Origin: Terriglobia bacterium
GTDB taxonomy: Bacteria; Acidobacteriota; Terriglobia; Terriglobales; Acidobacteriaceae
DNA: 64,000 nucleotides
Direction of reading: 5' to 3'
Assembly (NCBI GenBank): GCA_020073015.1
Contig: JAIQFZ010000004.1
Location: 1-64,000 of the forward strand
Shown here in pieces: positions 6,929 through 16,928 of the stretch. Both the position numbers and the translations under genes were made by a program. The notes beneath the pieces were generated by a model that did not search any database, was not told the origin of the DNA, and saw only the letters and a list, made by a program, of their open reading frames with translations. Position 1 is the first letter of the stretch; each line of letters opens with the position of its first letter.

Positions 6929-7393
6929 TTAGCTCTTGGTCTTTTTCTTTCTCTTTTTGCAGAGGTCTTCCAGCACGTATTTTAAGGACGCGCACTCCTG
7001 GATGACTCCCTCGAGTTTAGGGATGGTCGCCTTCAACTCATTTTCCTCAACCACGCCGTCAGCCAAGGTTTCTGCAACGCTCTCCAGCGCTTCCCCGACC
7101 TCCTTGATAAGGTTGGAGATCGCAACTAATTCCTTTTCCAGCGTCACATGGGGATCAGGCAGCTTGAATGCTACCCGCCCTGCCTGGCTCTCAAGAAAGT
7201 CAAGGACTTCGCAATTGTTGAGGAGGACGCATATCCGCGGCAGCAGATGCGCGGGTAGCGGCCGCTCTCCTCGAAGCCAGTACATGAGGGAGCGATAGTT
7301 CGTCCCCAGTTGCTGGGCGAGCAATCGTGTGTCGTACTCAGTCTTGGTTTCGACAACTCGGCTCAAGATGGAGGATATGTCGTTGGTAGGCAC
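6929..7393 (-). CDS. Phage CII-like transcriptional regulator
   Basis: This 154-residue protein has a helix-turn-helix-like N-terminus (LAQQLGTNYRSLMYWLRGERPLPAHLLPRI) and a helical C-terminal half. That layout resembles the phage regulatory CII family (CP76 type). It ends in a very basic KKRKKKTKS tail. A GTG start at 7393 is preceded by GAGGAA. It is transcribed away from the PspA cluster, and the 300-base gap between them holds a palindrome close to its own start. It may therefore control itself and possibly the cluster. The family match is by architecture and local motif only. Confidence 0.6.
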   Translation of the reverse strand: MPTNDISSILSRVVETKTEYDTRLLAQQLGTNYRSLMYWLRGERPLPAHLLPRICVLLNNCEVLDFLESQAGRVAFKLPDPHVTLEKELVAISNLIKEVGEALESVAETLADGVVEENELKATIPKLEGVIQECASLKYVLEDLCKKRKKKTKS

Positions 7394-7420
7394 GGGAGTT
7401 CCTCGATGAAGGTTCTCTTA

Positions 7421-7446
7421 GTTCAAAAACGGAGTTCATTTTGAAC
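7421..7446. promoter_or_regulatory. Putative operator with GTTCA palindromes
   Basis: GTTCAAAA at 7421-7428 is mirrored by TTTTGAAC at 7439-7446, and a second nested palindrome GTTCATTTTGAAC covers 7434-7446. A further GTTCA lies at 7456. The site is 28-53 bases upstream of the CII-like regulator start, where an autoregulatory operator would sit. The rest of the 300-base gap (7394-7693) shows only the promoter listed separately. Confidence 0.5.
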
Positions 7447-7590
7447 GAGCAAAGTGTTCATTCTAGCTGAATTGCACAAATTCAAAGATCGCATTACATT
7501 TGCTCACGCAGCGGTAAGCGCCCCAGGGCGGACGGGATGTCAGCTTCGCCGGCGAGCTGGTTCAGTGTCCTTGGAACTCTATGACAACAA

Positions 7591-7619
7591 TTGACAAACA
7601 ACGCGCCGGGTCGTAGTTT
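7591..7619 (+). promoter_or_regulatory. Putative sigma-70-type promoter for the PspA cluster
   Basis: A perfect TTGACA lies at 7591-7596, and a weak TAGTTT follows at 7614-7619 after a 17-base spacer. The next gene starts at 7694, which gives a leader of about 70 bases. The -10 element is poor, so this call is tentative. Confidence 0.4.
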
Positions 7620-7693
7620 TCAAGGTCACCTTCTTCCTTCTATAGTTGTTGCGCTGAACATTGACACGCGAGGGTCGCGTCCCTGGAGGCAGA

Positions 7694-8380
7694 ATGTCCA
7701 AGAAGTGGTACAACTACATCGTTTCCGTTGACGAGACGGCCGGCGCTGAGCAAAGCTCGCCAAATGCGAGGAACGCTCCGGCCACTGCCAAGAGCGCAGC
7801 TCAAAGTGTGGCTGAGATCGCATCCAGCATAGCCGCTGAGCCGAAATTTACATCGCCAGTGTCCGATCCTACTTCGTTCGAGGAGATCTACAAAGCAGCG
7901 GAAATCCCGCCCGCACCGCAGGGCTATTCGATCCTCAAGATTTCGCAGATGCTGGAGAGCGAGCACATCCGCAATTTGCCTTCGGACGTGAAGCGGTCTT
8001 CGGTTTTGGTCGCGCTCGACGCTGCGGGCGTGGACGTCAAGGAGATCATCCAGGACGCGATTCGGCGCGACCGTGCCCTTGACACCTACGAACGCGTGCA
8101 GCAACGCGCCGCCGCAGAACTGGAAGCGCGCAAGACTAAGGAAAACAGTGAGATTCAGGCGCAGATTGATAGCTACGTGACCGAGCAGCGAGCGAAAATT
8201 CAGAGCAACAACGAAGAAGTTTCACGCGAGAAAGAACGTTTTACCGGCTGGCGGCTGAAGAAACAGCAGGAAGAAAAGAAGATCGCCGAGGCGGTCGGAT
8301 ACTTTGTCAGCGAAAACCCCATTACGACGGGCGATGTGAATGCGCCGCCGCCCACATCGAAGACAGCGCAGCGTTCCTGA
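7694..8380 (+). CDS. Hypothetical coiled-coil protein, first gene of the PspA cluster
   Basis: From the ATG at 7694 (GGAGG 4-9 bases upstream) the protein has 228 residues. An alanine-rich, probably disordered segment is followed by a compact region around YSILKISQMLESEHIRNLPSDVKRSS and then a long charged helix (about residues 135-205) rich in E, K, R and Q. It has no signal peptide or membrane helix, so it is probably cytoplasmic. I do not recognise the family. The pspA start is only 12 bases after its stop, so co-expression is very likely and a PspA partner or adaptor role is plausible. Confidence 0.7.
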   Translation: MSKKWYNYIVSVDETAGAEQSSPNARNAPATAKSAAQSVAEIASSIAAEPKFTSPVSDPTSFEEIYKAAEIPPAPQGYSILKISQMLESEHIRNLPSDVKRSSVLVALDAAGVDVKEIIQDAIRRDRALDTYERVQQRAAAELEARKTKENSEIQAQIDSYVTEQRAKIQSNNEEVSREKERFTGWRLKKQQEEKKIAEAVGYFVSENPITTGDVNAPPPTSKTAQRS

Positions 8381-8392
8381 ACAGGAGGAGTT

Positions 8393-9127
8393 ATGTGGCA
8401 ACGGTTGACGAGAGTGGTGCGGTCTTTCATCGGTTTCTTCATCTCGGTGGCGGAGGACCCCGAGCTTATTCTGCAGCAGAATATTCGTGACATGAATGAC
8501 CAGGTGCCTCGGATGAATGAGAGCATCGCCATGGTGAAGGCCAACGTAACGCTGCTGGAGAAGGAAGAAGCCAAGTACAAGAACGACATAGCCGGGCTGA
8601 CCGCCAAAGTGAAAGCCGCGATCCAGGCCAACCGCGACGATCTGGCTGCCGCCTTCGCTGCCCAACTGGAACAAACAAAAGGCGCTCTGGCCAGGACGCA
8701 GGGACAACTCACGACCGCGCGTGCCGCCTTTGAAAAGGCTATGACCGTGAAGCAGGCGTTCATGCAAGAGAAGGAGCGCAAGACGCAGGAGGCGCTCAAT
8801 GCGATCGCCGACTACCGTCGCGCGCAATGGCAGAAAAAGGTTGCCGATGCCATGGAACAGTTCGAAGTGGCGGGCATCAGCCAGACCCATGATGAGATGG
8901 TCCGCAAGATTGAAGAGATGACCGCGGTCAACGAGGCTCGTATGGATATGGCGATGAGCAATGTAGACCAGCAGAAGTTCAAGATCGAGGACGACGCCCA
9001 GAAACTCCAGGCCGCCGAGCTGGTGAAGCAATTCAAGATTGAGATGGGCCTCGCAGCACCACAAGCCGCAGCGCCAGCGAGTGCAGAAAAAACAATCGCT
9101 GCGAAGGAACCACAACGGACTTCTTAG
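8393..9127 (+). CDS. pspA: PspA/IM30 (Vipp1) family membrane-remodelling protein
   Basis: The 244-residue, almost wholly helical protein starts with an amphipathic helix (MWQRLTRVVRSFIGFFISVAED). This leads into the family segment EDPELILQQNIRDMNDQVPRM and then long charged coiled coils to about residue 215, with an Ala/Pro tail. PspA and Vipp1 belong to the ESCRT-III superfamily; they bind damaged membrane and form rods or rings. There is a strong AGGAG site before the ATG. In the classical stress operon PspA pairs with PspF, PspB and PspC. None is present here; its neighbours are an ABC module and an AAA+ ATPase. Confidence 0.92.
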   Translation: MWQRLTRVVRSFIGFFISVAEDPELILQQNIRDMNDQVPRMNESIAMVKANVTLLEKEEAKYKNDIAGLTAKVKAAIQANRDDLAAAFAAQLEQTKGALARTQGQLTTARAAFEKAMTVKQAFMQEKERKTQEALNAIADYRRAQWQKKVADAMEQFEVAGISQTHDEMVRKIEEMTAVNEARMDMAMSNVDQQKFKIEDDAQKLQAAELVKQFKIEMGLAAPQAAAPASAEKTIAAKEPQRTS

Positions 9128-9198
9128 AGGGCGATCGAAGCGCCTCGAATCCCAAAACAGATGCAACCGTTTGCGCAAGAGCCGGGGAGGAAAATGGT

Positions 9199-10767
9199 AT
9201 GGTGAAAATTGAGAGAGGTGGCTGGGTTCTTATTTTCCTGGTTGGCGTAGCCCTGGTTGGCTACAGCCTGAATCGATACGGGGTCATAGATTTCGGCAAG
9301 TGGACTGCCGGCAAGAGCGCCTCCGGCAGCGGGGAGACGGTAGATGCTTCCAAGCCTCTGTTGCTGCCCGCATCTTCGACCAGCAGCGACGCCGAGGTCC
9401 GGGTGCGCGTCAACGTGTGGGTCGGCTGTGTCGGCGGCTTGGTGGCGAATGGCGGACTCGACACGGTTTCCGACTCGATCTATGGCAAGAAAGGACTCAA
9501 GGTTTCGTTCAAGATCATCGACGATTGGACGGAGGGAGCGGCCGCCCTGGCAACCAATAACGTCGACGTCATGCTCACGACCGCAGATGTGTACGCCAAA
9601 GACTACGCCCAGTTTAAGGAAAGAGGATTCGGGTCGCATGCGTTCCTGATGGTGGACTGGTCCCGCGGCGCTGATGGCGTCATTGGCAAGCAGGGAATCA
9701 ACAGCATCGAGGACCTGGCCGGCAAGAAAGTGGCGTTTGCCCCTTACACTCCTTCGCACTTCTTGCTGTGGAATGGACTCAAAACTTCCGGGCTCGGCAC
9801 GGAGCAGCGCAACGAAATCTTCAACCAGGCCGTCCACACCAAGGATGGCATCGAGCCGGCAACTCTTTTCGCCCAGGAAAAAGTCGACGCGGCCGTGGCC
9901 TGGGACCCGGATATGAGCGACGCGGTTTCCAAGCGAGCCGGATCGAAGAAGATCTACGATACGAAAATTGCCAACCGCCTGATCGCCGACATTCTCGTCG
10001 TGAGTGACAGCTTCTCCGCCAAGCATCCGCAAACCTTGCTGAAGTTCGCCCAGGGCTGGCTGGAAGGCGTTGAGTTCATCAAGACACAACCAGAGCGGGC
10101 GTACAACCTGATCGGAACGGTCAAGGATTTCAATATTCCATCCGACCTGGCGAAGACGATGCTCGGTGGCGTGAAGCTTGCGGACTACGCTGACAACCGC
10201 TCGTTCATGGGCACCGCCGGGTCGAATTCCGACTACAACAACATCCTGGGCATGGCTCAGGACATGTATCGGGAGCTGCGGATCATTAAACACACGTTCA
10301 ATCCGGAAGAGAGCCTGGATCGCCGCTATGTCGAGAAATTGGCCGACAGCTTCTCCATGGCGTCCAGCGAGGCACCGATCGAATACAAAGAGCCCCCAAG
10401 GGGAGCAACTCCGATCGCGACGCAACATCGGTCGATCTACTTTGAGCCCAATTCTTCCCGCATGAGCCTGGATTCGCGTGCGGTGGTGGATGAACTCGCC
10501 GGCACGATGCGTGCTTATGAGAACACCGTCGTCGATATTGATGGCAACACCGACTCGACCGGTGCGCGTGCCTACAACGTTCAGCTTTCCCACGCGCGGG
10601 CGGATGAGGTCAAGAACTACTTGATGGAAAAGTACGGTTTTCCCGCCAAACGTCTTCGGACGGCTGGCAACGGTCCGGACAAACCGATTGACAGCAATGC
10701 GACGCCGGAAGGACGCGAGAAGAATCGGCGTACGGACATTAAGGTCTATGCCAACCCCTCGAGCTAA
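9199..10767 (+). CDS. NMT1/TauA-type substrate-binding protein fused to an OmpA peptidoglycan-binding domain
   Basis: The 522-residue protein has an uncleaved N-terminal membrane anchor (residues 9-26), a linker, and a type 2 periplasmic binding domain (about 70-370). The binding domain has typical segments EGAAALATNNVDVML and INSIEDLAGKKVAFAP. A C-terminal OmpA-like domain follows (about 412-517) and carries the peptidoglycan contact motif TDSTGARAYNVQLSHARA, with D452 and R467. The protein would thus be tied to both the inner membrane and the cell wall. The ABC permease and ATPase for such a domain follow downstream. The ligand cannot be told from the sequence. Confidence 0.85.
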   Translation: MVKIERGGWVLIFLVGVALVGYSLNRYGVIDFGKWTAGKSASGSGETVDASKPLLLPASSTSSDAEVRVRVNVWVGCVGGLVANGGLDTVSDSIYGKKGLKVSFKIIDDWTEGAAALATNNVDVMLTTADVYAKDYAQFKERGFGSHAFLMVDWSRGADGVIGKQGINSIEDLAGKKVAFAPYTPSHFLLWNGLKTSGLGTEQRNEIFNQAVHTKDGIEPATLFAQEKVDAAVAWDPDMSDAVSKRAGSKKIYDTKIANRLIADILVVSDSFSAKHPQTLLKFAQGWLEGVEFIKTQPERAYNLIGTVKDFNIPSDLAKTMLGGVKLADYADNRSFMGTAGSNSDYNNILGMAQDMYRELRIIKHTFNPEESLDRRYVEKLADSFSMASSEAPIEYKEPPRGATPIATQHRSIYFEPNSSRMSLDSRAVVDELAGTMRAYENTVVDIDGNTDSTGARAYNVQLSHARADEVKNYLMEKYGFPAKRLRTAGNGPDKPIDSNATPEGREKNRRTDIKVYANPSS

Positions 10768-10839
10768 GCGTGAGTCGTAAGGCGGTTTGGGTAGGGCACG
10801 GCATTACAAGCTGCCAAAGAATCGATCTGGCGCTTGATT

Positions 10840-11120
10840 TTGGGTGGCGCAGCGCTTCAGCGCTGCGGTAGCTGCAATGTTTTGAGCACGGCTTTAGCCG
10901 CTGAGGGCGCACTTTCTGCGCAGGAATTAGTTATTCCGCAATCTGTTCGGCCGTGCCGTTCAGGACAGAACGCGGGCTTTAGTGTGTGCGTGAGAACTGG
11001 AATGTGAATTCAGCGGTGGGATGGAAGCGTTGCGATTCCGCCCCGGCGGGGCGACCGAGCTTAGCCCAGCGCTTCAGCGCTGGAAACAGTGGTAAAGATG
11101 ACCCAAGTCCCGGAGGGACG
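10840..11120. repeat. Intergenic repeat cluster of short palindromes
   Basis: The 434-base gap at 10768-11201 has no convincing gene. It contains AGCGCTTCAGCGCT at 10851-10864 and the related CCAGCGCTTCAGCGCTGG at 11066-11083. There is also a CGCCCCGGCGGGGCG palindrome at 11039-11053 and GTCCCGGAGGGAC at 11107-11119. Repeated palindromes of this kind are typical of REP-like intergenic elements. It separates the binding-protein gene from its permease and could stabilise or end the upstream transcript. Confidence 0.65.
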
Positions 11121-11201
11121 ACCGAGTTCTCAATAGCCCCTTACGGGTGTGCCTTCCTAGCTGAAGGGCATTTATGAAACACTCTCTAACGATAGGTCAC
11201 A

Positions 11202-12059
11202 ATGAGTGATTGGTTCACCATTCGGAAAGAGGTTTCTCCGCGGGTCCGATGGGCCTTCGCGCTTATCAGTTGGGGCATCGTCGTGTTGCTCTGGATCGCC
11301 CTGACCCACTGGGAGATTCTGCCGCCCTTCTCGCTTCCCAAGCCGCTCGGGGTAGTTCGAGCTTTTGGCAAGCTGTGGACGGAATACGACCTGCTGGGAA
11401 ACGTCTTCAAGAGTTGGTGGCGAATTGCGCAGGCTTTCTTCTGGTGTGCCGTGGTGGCGATTCCGCTCGGGATCCTGATGGCTAGCTTTCGGTGGCTGTT
11501 CGAGCTGATCAATCCCGTAGCCGCACCTATGCGTGCCATGCCGCTGACTGCGTTCTTGCCCGCGTTCATCGCCCTGTTCGGCATGGACGAAACCATGAAG
11601 GTCGCGTTCCTGTGGTTCGGAATGTTCTTCTACCTGTTGGCGGTGGTCGTCGAAGAAGCCAATCGGGTCGACAACGCATTACTGGAAACCGCGTACACGC
11701 TCGGTGCCAAGCAGCGGCAAGCTTTGTGGCTGGTGTTTCGAGCGTCGTTCCCGGCCATTTTTTCGTCGTTCCGCATTCTCTATGACATCGGCTGGACGTA
11801 CGTGATCCTGGCGGAGATGGTGAACTCGCGCAAGGGTGTGGGCTACATGGTCGAAGCGGCCCGCAAAGTGCTCGACTTCGAGCGCGTGTATGCCGGCATT
11901 ATCGCGATCGGCATTGCCGCCTTCCTGTTCCGGTTTCTGCTGACGTTTCTGGAGGGACGCCTTTTCCCATGGCGCAAAGCGAGTGCCGCCCTTGCCGGAG
12001 GGGGAGCGGCTGTGCCCAGCGCCACGGCACACTTGAAGGCAGCCAAGCATGGAGCCTAA
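11202..12059 (+). CDS. ABC transporter permease, nitrate/sulfonate/taurine type
   Basis: This 285-residue protein has about six membrane helices. The cytoplasmic EAA loop is ALLETAYTLGAKQRQALWLV, which contacts the ATPase, and it is typical of SsuC/TauC-type importer permeases. The C-terminus is a low-complexity Ala/Gly tail. The gene lies after the repeat-filled gap and overlaps the ATPase gene by 11 bases. With the NMT1-type binding protein and the ATPase it makes a complete importer, although the wall-anchored binding protein suggests a sensing or mechanical role as well. Confidence 0.88.
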   Translation: MSDWFTIRKEVSPRVRWAFALISWGIVVLLWIALTHWEILPPFSLPKPLGVVRAFGKLWTEYDLLGNVFKSWWRIAQAFFWCAVVAIPLGILMASFRWLFELINPVAAPMRAMPLTAFLPAFIALFGMDETMKVAFLWFGMFFYLLAVVVEEANRVDNALLETAYTLGAKQRQALWLVFRASFPAIFSSFRILYDIGWTYVILAEMVNSRKGVGYMVEAARKVLDFERVYAGIIAIGIAAFLFRFLLTFLEGRLFPWRKASAALAGGGAAVPSATAHLKAAKHGA

Positions 12060-12876
12060 GAAATCGAAAATCTCGGTGCGCAACGTCAGCCGGTCGTTTG
12101 CTTCCGCGAACGGGGAGATTGTGAATGCCCTGCAAGGCATCAACCTCGAAATTGACGACGCGTATTCCAGGGAAGGGCGCGATGTCGGCGAGTTCCGCGT
12201 TCTGCTGGGTCCTTCCGGATGCGGCAAGTCAACTCTGCTGCGTTTGATCGCTGGCTTGGATCGCGCCGATACCGGCGAGGTCCTGGTGAATGAACAGCCG
12301 GTACACGCTCCGGGCAAGGACCGCGGCATGGTCTTTCAGAAGTACACTTCGTTCCCGTGGCTGACGGTCGCTGGTAACATAGCATACGGGTTGAAGATCA
12401 ACGGAGTCCCGGAGCAGCAGCGCAAAGATACAGTGGCGCAGTTGGTCCAGGCGGTGGGTCTCAGCGGCTTCGAGAACGCCTATCCGGAGACGCTTTCCGG
12501 AGGAATGCAGCAGCGGGTTGCGATTGCGCGCACGCTGGCGCTTCGTCCCGCGGTCATCCTCATGGATGAGCCGTTCGGCGCCCTGGATGCGCAGACCCGC
12601 AGCGAGATGCAGCAACTGCTGTTGAAAGTGTGGGACGAAACCGCCAGCACGATCTTGTTTGTCACGCACGACGTTGAGGAGGCGATTTACTTGGCGGATC
12701 GGATCTTTATCATGAGTGCGCATCCGGGGACGATTGTCGAAGACGTTCAGGTCCCCTTCGATCGCCCTCGTGATCTGAGCCTGAAACAACGAAATGAGTT
12801 TCACGAGCTGCAGAACTATGTTCTCGGCCGTTTGCGTCGCGCTCCCGGGAACGGACAGGTGCGGGTGAGTGTCTAA
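12049..12876 (+). CDS. ABC transporter ATP-binding protein, nitrate/sulfonate/taurine type
   Basis: The 275-residue nucleotide-binding subunit shows Walker A GPSGCGKST, Q-loop FQKYTSFPW, signature LSGGMQQR, Walker B VILMDEP and the H-loop VTHDVEEA. These features and the length match SsuB/TauB ATPases. An insertion (DDAYSREGRDVGEFRV) lies just before Walker A, where most relatives have a short loop. The start overlaps the permease end. The stop TAA directly touches the ATG of the next gene, so the downstream coiled-coil gene is translationally coupled to it. Confidence 0.92.
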   Translation: MEPKKSKISVRNVSRSFASANGEIVNALQGINLEIDDAYSREGRDVGEFRVLLGPSGCGKSTLLRLIAGLDRADTGEVLVNEQPVHAPGKDRGMVFQKYTSFPWLTVAGNIAYGLKINGVPEQQRKDTVAQLVQAVGLSGFENAYPETLSGGMQQRVAIARTLALRPAVILMDEPFGALDAQTRSEMQQLLLKVWDETASTILFVTHDVEEAIYLADRIFIMSAHPGTIVEDVQVPFDRPRDLSLKQRNEFHELQNYVLGRLRRAPGNGQVRVSV

Positions 12877-13776
12877 ATGGCTCCCGCCGACTTCCATGGC
12901 ATGCAAGAAGACGATCAGCCCGGTCCTCCCGTCCCGCAAGAAAACATCAACTACGTAAAAGAGGCGTTCCATCTGCAGTACAACTGGATCGCCATGCTGA
13001 GTGCGGGTGCGTTTGCGCTGGTCAGTGGCAGCTTCCTGCCGATTATCCTGGCTGGCGGCCTGGAGTTGATGTATCTGGCCATCGTTCCGCAGAATTGGCG
13101 CTTCCAGCGCCTGGTGCGGTCCTGGAAGTTCGCCGAACAGCAACAACAGCATCAGCAGAAGTTGAGCGAGATGCTAGGAAGCTTGCCGGCTGAGCTGCAG
13201 AGCCGGTATGTCCATGCGGCGCAGGTTTGCGGCTCGATTCGAAGCAACTTTGCTCAGTTTTCGTCGACCTCGCAGATCTTTTTGCAGCAAATCGACTCAC
13301 GACTACAAGGCTTGCTGAATGGTTACGCCCGGCTTTTGCTGGCTGTAGCCCAGCAGCAACAATACTTGAAGAGCACCGAGCAGGATGGCATCAAGCACGA
13401 GATTGCCTCCCTGCAAAGGACTCTGAGCAGCGACCCGCCGAAGGTCCAGGAAATCAACAAGAAACGCATCGAGATTCTCACCAAGCGTCTGGAAAAGTTC
13501 GATAAGATTTCTGAAAACCGGAAAGTCGTCGACGCCCAGTGTTCTGCGGTAGAAGACGTACTCATGCTGGTGCGCGATCAATCGGTCACCATGCGAGACC
13601 CGCAACAGGTCAGCGAGCGCCTCGACAGTCTTGTGCATGACGTCGAGCAGACCGAGCAGACTGTGCAGCAGGTGGAAGCGATTTTCAGCGGGATGTCGCC
13701 CGACCTGGACGGATTGATGTCCCTTGACGATACCTCAACCTCCTCGGGCCCCAACCGTGTGCGGATGTCGAACTAA
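12877..13776 (+). CDS. Membrane-anchored coiled-coil protein of the PspA cluster
   Basis: The 299-residue protein has a short acidic start, then a hydrophobic hairpin at about residues 36-70 (WIAMLSAGAFALVSGSFLPIILAGGLELMYLAIV). The remainder is a long soluble helical region with a Q-rich stretch and a heptad-like segment around residues 170-215 and 230-275. It has no recognised enzyme motif. The ATG directly follows the ATPase stop, and its own stop directly touches the AAA+ gene, so the three proteins are probably made in step. It could be a membrane docking subunit for the AAA+ protein or for PspA. The family is not recognised. Confidence 0.75.
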   Translation: MAPADFHGMQEDDQPGPPVPQENINYVKEAFHLQYNWIAMLSAGAFALVSGSFLPIILAGGLELMYLAIVPQNWRFQRLVRSWKFAEQQQQHQQKLSEMLGSLPAELQSRYVHAAQVCGSIRSNFAQFSSTSQIFLQQIDSRLQGLLNGYARLLLAVAQQQQYLKSTEQDGIKHEIASLQRTLSSDPPKVQEINKKRIEILTKRLEKFDKISENRKVVDAQCSAVEDVLMLVRDQSVTMRDPQQVSERLDSLVHDVEQTEQTVQQVEAIFSGMSPDLDGLMSLDDTSTSSGPNRVRMSN

Positions 13777-15531
13777 ATGCCATCGAATCCAACAGCGTTA
13801 GGGAAGTATCTGGATGCACTTCCCGCGTGGGCGCGGGAACTCTCCGAAAAGTACTACTCGCGGTCGTTCGCATTGTTCGTGCTCTATGGGAACGTGCGGG
13901 ACTTGGTACCGCTGCGAAGCCAAGAGACCACGAACTTTGTACCGCTCGATGAGTTTCTGTCCGGTGCGCTCTTCGGCCAACGCGACCTGGTTCTGCATTA
14001 TGACCGTGGTGGGTTGACCTTCGGCTCCGCCGACACTCAAGCCGACTTTCGCCGCGCACTCGAAGGATACGACAGTTTTCACGGCACCAGCTATTCGCAA
14101 GGCGGACTGCCGCGTAACCCCGATGCGGCCTTGAACCTGCTCGACAATTATCTGCGGTTGCGCATCGCCGACGGCAAGAAGATCGGGCTGGTCATTGATT
14201 TCGCCGAGACCATCGCCCCCGCGGGCGATATCTCCGGCATGTCGGCGGAAGATCGGAATGCCTTGGTCATTCTCAAGCGTTGGGCGCGCAATTCTGCTTT
14301 TCTGAACGCCGACGTGACTATCTGCCTCGTGTCGGAAAACCAGATCGAACTGAATCAGGGCATCGTCCAGCACCCAGGCGTCTCTTCGATCGGGATTCCG
14401 CTGCCGGACTATGCGGATCGGCTGGAATTTATCCGAACGCAATTGAAAAATCAGGAGCTGCCCGCTGGCTCCGAGGTTAACGATGAGTCCTTGGCCAAGC
14501 TGGGTGCTGGTTTGAAGCGCGTCCAGCTGCAGAGCCTGATCTCCCATGCGGTGCAGAACCGGCAACCACTCACGCTCAAGTTTCTCTCGGACCGGAAAAG
14601 GGACCTGATTGAAGCCGAATCCGGTGGTCTGCTGGAGTTTGTGCAGAGCCGGTTTGATTTGTCGTTTGTCGCCGGAAATGACCAGGCGAAGCGAAAGCTG
14701 CAGGATGCCGCGCAAGCAATCCGTGCCGGCAGCACCGATGTCCTGCCTATGGGCTACGTGATCTGTGGACCGGTGGGTACGGGAAAAACGTTCATCACCA
14801 CCTGCTTCGCCGGCGAAGTCGGGATTCCCGCGGTCACACTGAAGAACTTTCGCAGCATGTGGCAGGGAGTCACGGAAGGAAATTTGGAGAGGGTCTTGAC
14901 CCTGCTCAAAGCGATGAGCCCGATTGCAGTGATCGTAGATGAGGCGGACGCTCAACTGGGCGACCGCTCCAGCTCCGGCGATAGTGGCGTGGGCAATCGT
15001 GTATTTGCCCAGATCGCACAGTTCATGGGGAATACCGAACTGCGAGGCAAGGTGATCTGGTTTCTACTCACCTGCCGTCCTGATTTGTTACCCGTGGACC
15101 TGAAGCGGCAGGGCCGGGCAGAAGAACACATTGCCCTGTTTTATCCCGATACGCCGGAAGAGCGCCTCGCCCTTTTGCGCGCCATGCAACGGAAGGTCGG
15201 CATGAAGCCTTTCCCGGAAGACATTGAGAAGTTCTTTCTGGATCGCGCCGGAAGCCTGTCGGGAGCCGATATCGAGGCTGTCCTGGTGCGGAGTCACATG
15301 CGCAGCAGCCTGCAAAAGAAGGCCGCCGTCGATCAGGAAGACCTGAAAGCCGCGCTCGAGGATTTCATCCCGCCGTACTACCCGACCGAGATCGATCTGC
15401 AGAATCTGGTTGCGGTACTGGAATGCACCAGCAGGAGCCTGCTGCCGAAACAGTACCGGGATATCGAACGCAGTGAGCTGATCCGGCGGACCAACGAACT
15501 GCTTGCGTTGTCTCGACAGACGGCGGACTAG
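13777..15531 (+). CDS. AAA+ ATPase, Ycf46-like architecture
   Basis: The 584-residue protein has two halves. The N-terminal half (about 1-280) looks like a degenerate ATPase domain without a Walker A. The C-terminal half is an active AAA+ module with Walker A GPVGTGKT (331-338), Walker B VIVDEAD (385-391), a TCRPDLLP sensor region (432-439), and a helical lid ending in GSLSGADIEAVLVRS. A degenerate plus an active half is seen in Ycf46-type proteins. As the last gene of the PspA cluster it is a candidate motor for remodelling PspA polymers, by analogy with Vps4 and ESCRT-III. Confidence 0.82.
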   Translation: MPSNPTALGKYLDALPAWARELSEKYYSRSFALFVLYGNVRDLVPLRSQETTNFVPLDEFLSGALFGQRDLVLHYDRGGLTFGSADTQADFRRALEGYDSFHGTSYSQGGLPRNPDAALNLLDNYLRLRIADGKKIGLVIDFAETIAPAGDISGMSAEDRNALVILKRWARNSAFLNADVTICLVSENQIELNQGIVQHPGVSSIGIPLPDYADRLEFIRTQLKNQELPAGSEVNDESLAKLGAGLKRVQLQSLISHAVQNRQPLTLKFLSDRKRDLIEAESGGLLEFVQSRFDLSFVAGNDQAKRKLQDAAQAIRAGSTDVLPMGYVICGPVGTGKTFITTCFAGEVGIPAVTLKNFRSMWQGVTEGNLERVLTLLKAMSPIAVIVDEADAQLGDRSSSGDSGVGNRVFAQIAQFMGNTELRGKVIWFLLTCRPDLLPVDLKRQGRAEEHIALFYPDTPEERLALLRAMQRKVGMKPFPEDIEKFFLDRAGSLSGADIEAVLVRSHMRSSLQKKAAVDQEDLKAALEDFIPPYYPTEIDLQNLVAVLECTSRSLLPKQYRDIERSELIRRTNELLALSRQTAD

Positions 15532-15534
15532 GTG

Positions 15535-15596
15535 TGGAGGGACGGGCGTCTCGCCCGTCCAGGCGGGCGAGGACGGCCGGCTCTCCACAAGTAAGC
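15535..15596. repeat. GC-rich hairpin element after the PspA cluster
   Basis: GACGGGCG and CGCCCGTC form a stem at 15541-15559, and a second imperfect GGCGGGCGAGGACGGCCGG arm follows. It lies 9 bases after the AAA+ stop between convergent genes. It may act as a transcript end, but it lacks a T-run. Similar GGGCG-TCT-CGCCC hairpins are common intergenic repeats in this type of genome. Confidence 0.45.
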
Positions 15597-15700
15597 TTGG
15601 ATTCGCCCTGCCTCCAGCGCGTCCATTCAAATCACAATTCCATCCATGCGGAAAGCCCTGCGTGTCGGGGTAAAACAAGCCCTGGGCCGACAGGATTGGG

Positions 15701-16102
15701 TCACTCGCCGGCCTTTTGTCGATAAGGCCGAATCGCTCGCGCCATCAACCCGAGCCCGCCCACAAAAAGGATCACGATCACGAGTGTGTTGAACAAGCTT
15801 GTCGGCTGAAAATAGATGTGCATGTTGGCAATTACGCCCGCCAGGATAAAGAGCGCTCCGGCGGTCGCCAGGAGCCAGCCGACGATGTTGCGGCCGCTCC
15901 AGAATAGGATTCCGACGCCGATCAGCAGCGGCAGAAGTGTGATGCCGAATGTGTTCGCGCCGTAAAAACTCCAGTAGGAACCGACCACGGCGACTTGATT
16001 GCTCAGAAGGTATCCCCCAACGCAAGCCATCGCGAAACCGATCAGGAAATGGCCAAGGCCACCGGGCGTCCCGCCTGCGTCATTCAAAGAACGGTTTTCC
16101 AT
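15701..16102 (-). CDS. Hypothetical small integral membrane protein
   Basis: The 133-residue protein has about four hydrophobic helices (roughly 17-35, 48-66, 72-92 and 104-122) with short loops, and it ends in a charged RPYRQKAGE tail. There is no signal peptide or catalytic motif. It is a typical small multi-spanning membrane protein of unknown role. Codon use is normal for the window and the ATG start is clear. It is convergent with the PspA cluster and follows the methyltransferase gene. Confidence 0.7.
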   Translation of the reverse strand: MENRSLNDAGGTPGGLGHFLIGFAMACVGGYLLSNQVAVVGSYWSFYGANTFGITLLPLLIGVGILFWSGRNIVGWLLATAGALFILAGVIANMHIYFQPTSLFNTLVIVILFVGGLGLMARAIRPYRQKAGE

Positions 16103-16157
16103 GGGTGCGAGGATATCAAACCTTCGGCTTCCGGCGCTGCGACATTGCAGGCAGCTC

Positions 16158-16928
16158 TTAGCTTCGAGACTTGCGCGCCAGGTAAACTGTGCGGCAACCA
16201 GGACCGGTCAGCGGATTGTCCTTAAAGAAGGGGGCAGCATCCCAGGCACGCAGCTGGTCAAAGCCTGTCTGCTGGAAGATGCGACGGATCTCGTCCGAAT
16301 CCCAGCAGACCTCTTCGACGCGTTCGTGACGCCGTCGCCAGCAGCTTCCGTCCCGGATGAACCATTCGATATCGCTCCAGGCCCTGTCGGCCTGGCGGTT
16401 ATGGCCGTTGCGCATCACGACCGCCATGCTCGGCTTCTCGAGCCAAACGGTGCCTGACCAGCAGCGCTCAAATCCAAGGGAGTTGTTGACGTCGAAGAAG
16501 AAGTGGCCGCCGGGCCGCAGTGCTCGCGCCACGGCCTTTGCGACCACCCGCAGGTCTGCCCTTCGCGGAACATGATTGAGCGCATCGTATTCACACGTGA
16601 TCAGGTCCACCGCTTCCGGCAGCCGGAAACTCCGCATGTCGGCCCGAAGTACGCGTACAGGCAGGCGGGCACGAGCAGCCTTCGCACGGGCAAGCCGGCA
16701 CATTTGCGGGGATAGATCGACAGCGTACATATTGATTCCCTTGCGCGCCAGGGCTAGAGCAGTCGTTCCCGTGCCACACGCCAGATCGCAAGCGGTCTCA
16801 ACGTGGGGCAAGATCCGGCCGAGCACCCGCTCACGCGCCGCATCGATCGGGAATCGAAAAGGCGAAAAGAGCTCGTCGTAATACTGTGCAAGCCATCGAT
16901 AAGGTCTGACGTTTGGACTTCGAGGCAT
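16158..16928 (-). CDS. Class I SAM-dependent methyltransferase
   Basis: The 256-residue protein has the SAM-binding glycine motif CDLACGTGTTALALA followed by the acidic AVDLSP strand end. Post-motif segments LRADMRSFRLPEAVDLITCEYDALNH and ALRPGGHFFFDVNN fit a Methyltransf_25/11-type fold. The N-terminal YRWLAQYYDELF is typical of small-molecule methyltransferases. The substrate is unknown and the neighbours give no clue. The length is normal for a single-domain enzyme. Confidence 0.88.
   Translation of the reverse strand: MPRSPNVRPYRWLAQYYDELFSPFRFPIDAARERVLGRILPHVETACDLACGTGTTALALARKGINMYAVDLSPQMCRLARAKAARARLPVRVLRADMRSFRLPEAVDLITCEYDALNHVPRRADLRVVAKAVARALRPGGHFFFDVNNSLGFERCWSGTVWLEKPSMAVVMRNGHNRQADRAWSDIEWFIRDGSCWRRRHERVEEVCWDSDEIRRIFQQTGFDQLRAWDAAPFFKDNPLTGPGCRTVYLARKSRS

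Follow-up and report, generated by a model that had tools for sequence, protein, structure and literature searches.

A conserved C-terminal tag on PspA and its link to a double AAA+ ATPase: a possible bacterial counterpart of the ESCRT-III/Vps4 pair

It is accepted that PspA and Vipp1 are related to the ESCRT-III proteins, which shape membranes in our own cells, and we know of no experiment in which a Vps4-type motor was found to act on either of them. In Escherichia coli, PspA serves as an adaptor and inhibitor of an AAA+ protein, PspF, whose activity it restrains. The closest system to the one considered here was described by Ravi et al. (2024, mSystems, PMC11237479), who reported the association of PspA with a double AAA+ protein bearing an inactive N-terminal copy, encoded in long operons with ABC transporter and PBPB-OmpA genes, and predicted that this ATPase plays a part like that of Vps4. 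According to the passages of that paper which concern the system, the idea of a Vps4-like function for a PspA-linked AAA+ protein has already appeared as a published prediction, and the regulation of PspA assembly where an AAA ATPase is missing was left open. A PspA structure paper of 2024, in its passages bearing on this point, proposes that chaperones or PspF might assist. The section of Ravi et al. (PMC11237479) on the double AAA+ system mentions no C-terminal tag on PspA, and the single use of 'C-terminal tail' in the text consulted is in the title of a reference on Vipp1; among the titles and passages covered by a search of the open-access literature, likewise none links a motif in the PspA tail to an AAA+ protein. 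The conserved tail tag of PspA and its statistical association with the ATPase, both derived from sequence comparison, are the new element added here.

The window analysed in this work is a stretch of 64,000 nucleotides from a Terriglobia bacterium (Acidobacteriota; contig JAIQFZ010000004.1). Its double AAA+ protein fits the type of Ravi et al., as far as the section on that system describes it: two AAA+ domains, of which the N-terminal one is inactive, PspA, and an operon with ABC transporter and PBPB-OmpA genes. The relevant features are as follows.

7661..8380, + strand: helical protein of 239 aa, upstream of PspA
8393..9127, + strand: PspA/IM30 family protein, 244 aa (PF04012, 71.7 bits, cut-off 33.9; alignment)
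9086..9124, + strand: C-terminal PspA tag, residues 232-244 (EKTIAAKEPQRTS), after a variable linker (alignment, tail comparison)
9199..10767, + strand: substrate-binding protein (SBP; NMT1/SsuA-like) fused to an OmpA peptidoglycan-binding domain (Pfam/NCBIfam), part of a replaceable ABC cassette
11202..12059, + strand: ABC transporter permease (PF00528)
12049..12876, + strand: ABC transporter ATPase (PF00005)
12877..13776, + strand: TMcc, 299 aa, an N-terminal hydrophobic hairpin followed by a long helical bundle (alignment, AlphaFold2 pLDDT 80)
13777..15531, + strand: double AAA+ ATPase, 584 aa (ORF, Pfam, AlphaFold2, residue counts)
13822..14646, + strand: D1, degenerate AAA+ domain, approximately residues 16-290, P-loop absent (AlphaFold2, VIA-align to FtsH 1iy2 and PAN 3whk, residue counts)
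14659..15366, + strand: D2, active-type AAA+ domain, approximately residues 295-530 (Pfam, sequence matches, residue counts)
14767..14790, + strand: Walker A of D2, GPVGTGKT, residues 331-338 (sequence, homologue counts)

The genes thus follow one another on the + strand in the order 239-aa protein, PspA, SBP-OmpA fusion, permease, ABC ATPase, TMcc and AAA+. A preliminary description of this DNA had the ATPase encoded with PspA, which holds in so far as both genes lie on the same strand in one gene run, with PspA upstream; they are not adjacent, being separated by the SBP-OmpA, permease, ABC ATPase and TMcc genes. Scans for promoters and terminators over positions 7300-16200 gave results at the level of chance. 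The 239-aa protein (7661-8380) had no match in Pfam or NCBIfam; in the set of 74 related loci introduced below, it stands immediately 5' of PspA in most Acidobacteriota loci that extend that far. A stretch resembling ENPITT near its C-terminus is kept in most of the tails compared. The SBP-OmpA and permease genes are separated by a spacer of 434 bases (10768-11201), in which palindromes of the GCGCTTCAGCGC type were seen by eye. A second PspA of the same genome, located on another contig, bears no tag.

The C-terminal half of the ATPase had been described as an active AAA+ module with Walker A at residues 331-338, and GPVGTGKT is found exactly there. The Pfam AAA family (PF00004) matches residues 328-453 with 69.5 bits, against a cut-off of 21.2, and the combination of this module with intact Walker A and B motifs places the protein among the classical AAA+ ATPases. 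Residues were counted in 108 homologues scoring above 365 bits, out of 115 collected. Lys337 of Walker A, Asp388-Glu389 of Walker B and both arginine-finger positions, Arg444 and Arg447, are kept in 108/108, and the pore-loop Trp362 in 106/108. The sensor-1 position differs from that of classical AAA+ proteins of the Cdc48/FtsH side in that the asparagine is absent: the window has Cys, and of the 108 homologues 102 have Cys, Ser or Ala and 6 have Asn. Such a replacement may weaken ATP hydrolysis. Sensor-1 was considered as a means of recognising the PspA-linked subfamily and was dropped, because the six proteins retaining Asn include those of G028, G039 and G087, with PspA nearby, and also because one of the seven low-scoring relatives (L309, genome G468) is adjoined by both PspA and TMcc.

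The N-terminal half, previously called degenerate, indeed has no Walker A in its sequence, and its predicted structure is that of an AAA+ domain with a lid. The AlphaFold2 model, built from a 25-sequence alignment, has a mean pLDDT of 77, rising to about 90 over residues 11-280; D2 was modelled less well than D1, and parts of it are of low confidence. When the model was compared with solved structures by VIA-align, D1 matched, within model residues 11-276, the ATPase domain of FtsH (1iy2; model residues 11-275, Z 13.5, rmsd 3.2, 202 residues aligned) and PAN (3whk; Z 13.6, rmsd 4.0, 201 residues). The best fold matches of the whole model were double-ring AAA+ proteins, namely Rix7 (Z 17.8, 368 residues, rmsd 4.6), Cdc48/p97 and NSF, and sequence matches also point to Cdc48/VCP, Rix7/NVL and NSF. 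Libraries of defence systems returned weak matches only, to IetA and TRIP13.

How far does this protein resemble Vps4? It shares with Vps4 and CdvC a classical AAA+ module, an aromatic pore loop and two arginine-finger positions, features also common to other classical AAA+ proteins, as well as a partner from the ESCRT-III superfamily. Unlike them, it has a second, degenerate AAA+ domain. No Pfam match to MIT was obtained at E <= 1, and the modelled AAA+ domain with its lid occupies the N-terminal half, where Vps4 has MIT; neither was Vps4_C matched in Pfam, parts of the D2 model being of low confidence. The NCBIfam scores were 73.9 bits for FtsH, 65.1 for CDC48 and 37.8 for CdvC. Assignment to the Vps4 family was rejected on domain make-up, because MIT was not found, two AAA+ cassettes are present and the active one is nearer to Cdc48/FtsH. 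The two cassettes are shared with Cdc48/VCP, Rix7/NVL and NSF, which also give the top sequence and fold matches; unlike in those proteins, D1 is dead and no separate adaptor N-domain was seen. The pairing of PspA with an AAA+ partner recalls PspF-PspA of E. coli, but PspF is a sigma54 activator of the NtrC-type clade, and neither Sigma54_activat nor HTH is among the Pfam and NCBIfam matches of the present protein. Of the earlier suggestion of a Vps4-like motor for PspA, then, the partnership is upheld by gene neighbourhood and co-occurrence, and the Vps4 label is retained as an analogy only, since by score the active module stands closer to Cdc48/VCP and FtsH than it does to CdvC. The reading that we favour, and to which we give about an even chance, is that the AAA+ protein would be a dedicated classical motor for PspA, built as a Cdc48-like double ring whose D1 is dead and whose D2 is active, and would grip the C-terminal tag.

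A search for loci related to the AAA+ gene yielded 74, all from Acidobacteriota except five from Bacteroidota/Balneolia (L062-L066) and one doubtful Fermentibacteria fragment. The latter (L076) was rejected as evidence for a third phylum, as it comprises 39 residues only, at a contig end, and is probably contamination; a search of 42 Fermentibacteria genomes, run without a positive control, found the AAA+ in none (0/42). Neighbourhoods were counted in the 43 of the 74 loci which had at least 6.5 kb of upstream sequence and a good AAA+ ORF. Within 10 kb of AAA+, TMcc was present in 42/43, PspA in 39/43 and both in 39/43; one locus (L049) has neither, and three (L036, L038 and L074) have no PspA in the available sequence.

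The ABC cassette of the window could be taken to mean that the AAA+ protein serves the assembly of an envelope ABC transporter and its OmpA component, with PspA as a stress accessory of the transporter. Similar SBP-OmpA fusions in two further loci (L114 and L121) would agree with this, and a link to solute transport is suggested in the relevant passages of Ravi et al. (PMC11237479). On the other hand, the cassette is missing between PspA and TMcc in L059, is merely 22-36% identical in seven loci (L039, L043, L044, L046, L047, L054 and L073), and does not occur in the minimal PspA-TMcc-AAA+ runs (L294, L299-L301); we therefore consider a transporter role quite improbable. The rearranged locus L053, which also tells against such a role, has its ABC/SBP-OmpA cassette downstream in inverted orientation, on the opposite strand, with PspA, TMcc and AAA+ still together. 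As judged from these neighbourhoods, the recurrent core is PspA, TMcc and AAA+, and the ABC cassette is replaceable.

The occurrence of AAA+ and PspA was also compared in genome samples. In 119 genomes of the window's phylum, AAA+ was found in 21 (E <= 1e-60); PspA lies on the same strand at a distance of about 7 kb or closer in 12/21 and is not nearby in the other 9. In G056 and G103 it is downstream of AAA+ instead of upstream. TMcc was present in the fetched region of all PspA-linked AAA+ genomes besides the window (11/11). The wider Acidobacteriota sample used below for the tag, of 396 genomes, overlaps with the 119 genomes and also contains the window; the two sets are therefore not independent. 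In the phylum of L063, sampled with 148 genomes, all 37 AAA+ genomes carry a PspA above the Pfam cut-off, and AAA+ is missing, at the same threshold, from all 23 other genomes in which such a PspA occurs. The two genes are linked within 10 kb in 22 of the 37 genomes, lie on different contigs in 10, and are far apart on one contig in 5 (G128, G133, G155, G198 and G272). Gene neighbourhood and co-occurrence thus give good support to a specific partnership of PspA and AAA+ in some bacteria of soil and water, which is also hinted at by the common tail tag described below. One genome from the family to which the window belongs (G525, locus L289) has PspA adjacent to a weak TMcc match, and AAA+ is absent from it at E <= 1e-60.

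The third member of the core, TMcc, was found near PspA in 20/20 fetched PspA regions of the 148-genome set, even where AAA+ is elsewhere, and a small protein separates PspA and TMcc in most of these 20 regions. No TMcc was found near AAA+ in L112, L113, L119, L120 and L195-L199. The 'Snf7 homologs with a TM segment' mentioned in the section of Ravi et al. on the system may correspond to TMcc; TMcc itself has no PspA match, and the 25 Pfam families listed for it, out of 56, do not include Snf7 (28 members, with scattered weak matches). Alignment of TMcc with PspA by hhalign gave a probability of 1.4%. Against solved structures, the TMcc profile had its best match (E 0.0011) in a protein named H12. 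Many of the VIA matches of TMcc have BAR-type folds, at Z of about 9-12, and no BAR claim is made because these values are under the level trusted for helical bundles. No Vipp1, PspA or other ESCRT-III chain was among the best 50 fold matches listed. The possibility that TMcc is a second ESCRT-III protein was set aside on these grounds: the hhalign value, weak scattered matches among the Pfam families listed and no significant fold match. We propose that TMcc may be a membrane anchor or adaptor of the core.

In the aligned loci, the PspA tails vary along a linker and are conserved at their end, which is EKTIG-like in Acidobacteriota and KTxGR-like in Bacteroidota. A strict tag, K[TS][ILV][GA] in the last 25 residues, was derived from the discovery loci themselves, where it is found in 54/54 PspAs, 1.5% being expected from shuffled tails. 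An earlier, relaxed pattern gave one false match, within a helix (L139). In the Bacteroidota-side sample the strict tag occurs in 33/37 PspAs of AAA+ genomes vs 0/24 PspAs from 23 genomes without AAA+; one of the genomes (G121) is identical with L063 and stands in both the discovery and the test sets. The wider Acidobacteriota sample comprises 63 AAA+ genomes, of which the 41 whose PspA was found by the PspA profile were counted, and the strict tag was present in 17/41 with AAA+ vs 0/31 without. The other Acidobacteriota AAA+ genomes mostly have variants such as RTLGP, KELGP and KDMGP. A looser tag, [KR]x[ILMV]G[PRNGAKS], was devised after the Acidobacteriota tails had been viewed and is descriptive only; in the last 25 residues it gave 35/41 vs 1/31, or 36/41 vs 1/31 when the strict pattern was added. 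The single exception in which no AAA+ was found (G029) is a 90% complete genome from the genus of two AAA+ genomes, G040 and G061, and G484 belongs to the 35 solely through a KQIGA of the type seen in family f19, described below. Two PspAs missed by the profile (L149 and L151) had their tails read separately, and the PspA of G025 (L107, L190) and a partial match in G020, neither with a readable tail, were left out of the tag counts.

On the Bacteroidota side, the small protein beside PspA also has the tag. The PspA profile matches 20/24 of these small PspA-neighbour proteins, and K[TS][ILV]G lies within the last 60 residues of 23/24, where 0.7% would be expected from shuffled sequences, and within the last 25 of 19/24; the small proteins of L062-L066 were found by tag search and those of L205, L211 and L217 were flagged partly by tag, so that this count is not free of selection. 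In 6/24, two copies with Lys are present. A small protein of the tagged type was looked for in the 20 fetched regions, and none was seen in two of them, L203 and L204. Where PspA itself is tagless (G138, G159, G221 and G256), the small protein is tagged in 4/4 cases and has a second copy of the tag, with Arg instead of Lys in 3/4.

The correspondence between tag and ATPase has exceptions. PspA adjoins AAA+ in G551, G563 and G493 and its tail is without the tag; in G450 and G514 the KTLG part is lost and the final residues are kept; the PspAs of G028, G087 and G039 end in QKTM, which is outside the strict pattern, and that of G059 is without the tag. The tag also tracks PspA clades closely. On a tree of 99 PspA proteins, built with the tails excluded, AAA+ presence requires 6 changes and the strict tag 5, and well-supported independent pairs differing in AAA+ presence number 3, with which a sign test cannot be significant, and it is not.

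An alternative explanation is that the AAA+ protein would be a general unfoldase, its link with PspA an inherited neighbourhood, and the tag a clade trait with another reader. Four AAA+ relatives (L123-L126) could be cited in favour of this explanation, together with the non-significant tree test of tag against AAA+: the large gene upstream of AAA+ encodes a PQQ-type (PQQ/BamB-like) beta-propeller protein in 4/4 scanned, and PspA and TMcc were looked for in these regions and neither is present, therefore the link with PspA belongs to a part of the AAA+ family. However, these four proteins and L310 have a pore Tyr and a sensor-1 Asn, unlike the PspA-type AAA+ with its almost constant pore Trp. 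Co-occurrence without linkage in the five genomes named above, the exclusive pairing in the 148-genome sample and the fact that the small protein next to PspA is tagged as well also speak against mere inheritance of a neighbourhood, and we regard this explanation as improbable. In L126, a TPR protein is encoded beside the related double AAA+.

A separate problem is which protein might read the tag. Family f19 comprises 29 genomes with PspA and without AAA+, plus G484 with a distant AAA+; in 6 of these genomes AAA+ was absent even from a search with a lax threshold, and TMcc stands beside PspA in 6/6 loci examined. The strict tag is found in 0/29 of the f19 tails. A related KQIx stretch is present in 25/30 tails read, followed by G in just 6, and since KQIx is kept and the glycine is not conserved, the tail looks eroded rather than absent. 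Because f19 keeps TMcc and PspA while it has neither AAA+ nor the strict tag, we infer from this one lineage that AAA+ is the better candidate for the tag reader than TMcc.

It is conceivable that the tagged PspA is not a substrate but a regulator which switches the ATPase on or off, the clients being TMcc or other membrane proteins. The restraint of PspF by E. coli PspA would be a precedent, TMcc is found within 10 kb of AAA+ slightly more often than PspA (42/43 vs 39/43 loci), and in G484 and G564 TMcc adjoins AAA+ with PspA on another contig. We consider such a regulatory role rather unlikely. The AAA+ protein has no sigma54-activator match, f19 keeps TMcc in the absence of AAA+, and in Bacteroidota with unlinked genes TMcc accompanies PspA and not AAA+. 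Moreover, a tail in which the linker varies and the end is conserved resembles a handle, and some of the small proteins have this end twice.

If PspA is instead the substrate of a dedicated motor, the following sequence of events may be envisaged. Under stress, PspA would polymerise on the inner membrane, where TMcc might anchor the machine. The ATPase would recognise the short C-terminal tag of PspA and, in Bacteroidota, also that on the small, mostly PspA-like neighbour; the tail would then be drawn into the D2 pore past Trp362, and PspA subunits would thereby be extracted or remodelled. A broader and more tentative proposal, which we hold with somewhat less than even confidence, is that of a bacterial counterpart of ESCRT-III and Vps4, in which a double-ring AAA+ motor would recognise PspA-family polymers by a transferable tag at the C-terminus (K[TS][ILV]G and its variants), carried by PspA, by the small PspA-like neighbour or by both. 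Such a handle would be MIM-like in its logic, the PspA tail motif being comparable in this respect to the MIM motifs of Vps4 partners, with no need for MIT, and would be read probably by the dead D1 ring or by the D2 pore. Should the tail tag be the handle of a dedicated AAA+ protein, a bacterial ESCRT-III/Vps4 cycle would become directly testable, and the tag would provide an easy sequence mark for PspAs under motor control.

Two further observations concern PspA genes in other genomes. One genome without AAA+ at E <= 1e-60 has three tandem PspA genes (G100:C200:16124-18307). In another, from the window's phylum, the partial PspA_IM30 match left out of the tag counts (G020:C120:143999-144277) lies in an open frame reported as 24,127 aa, possibly encoding a giant protein.
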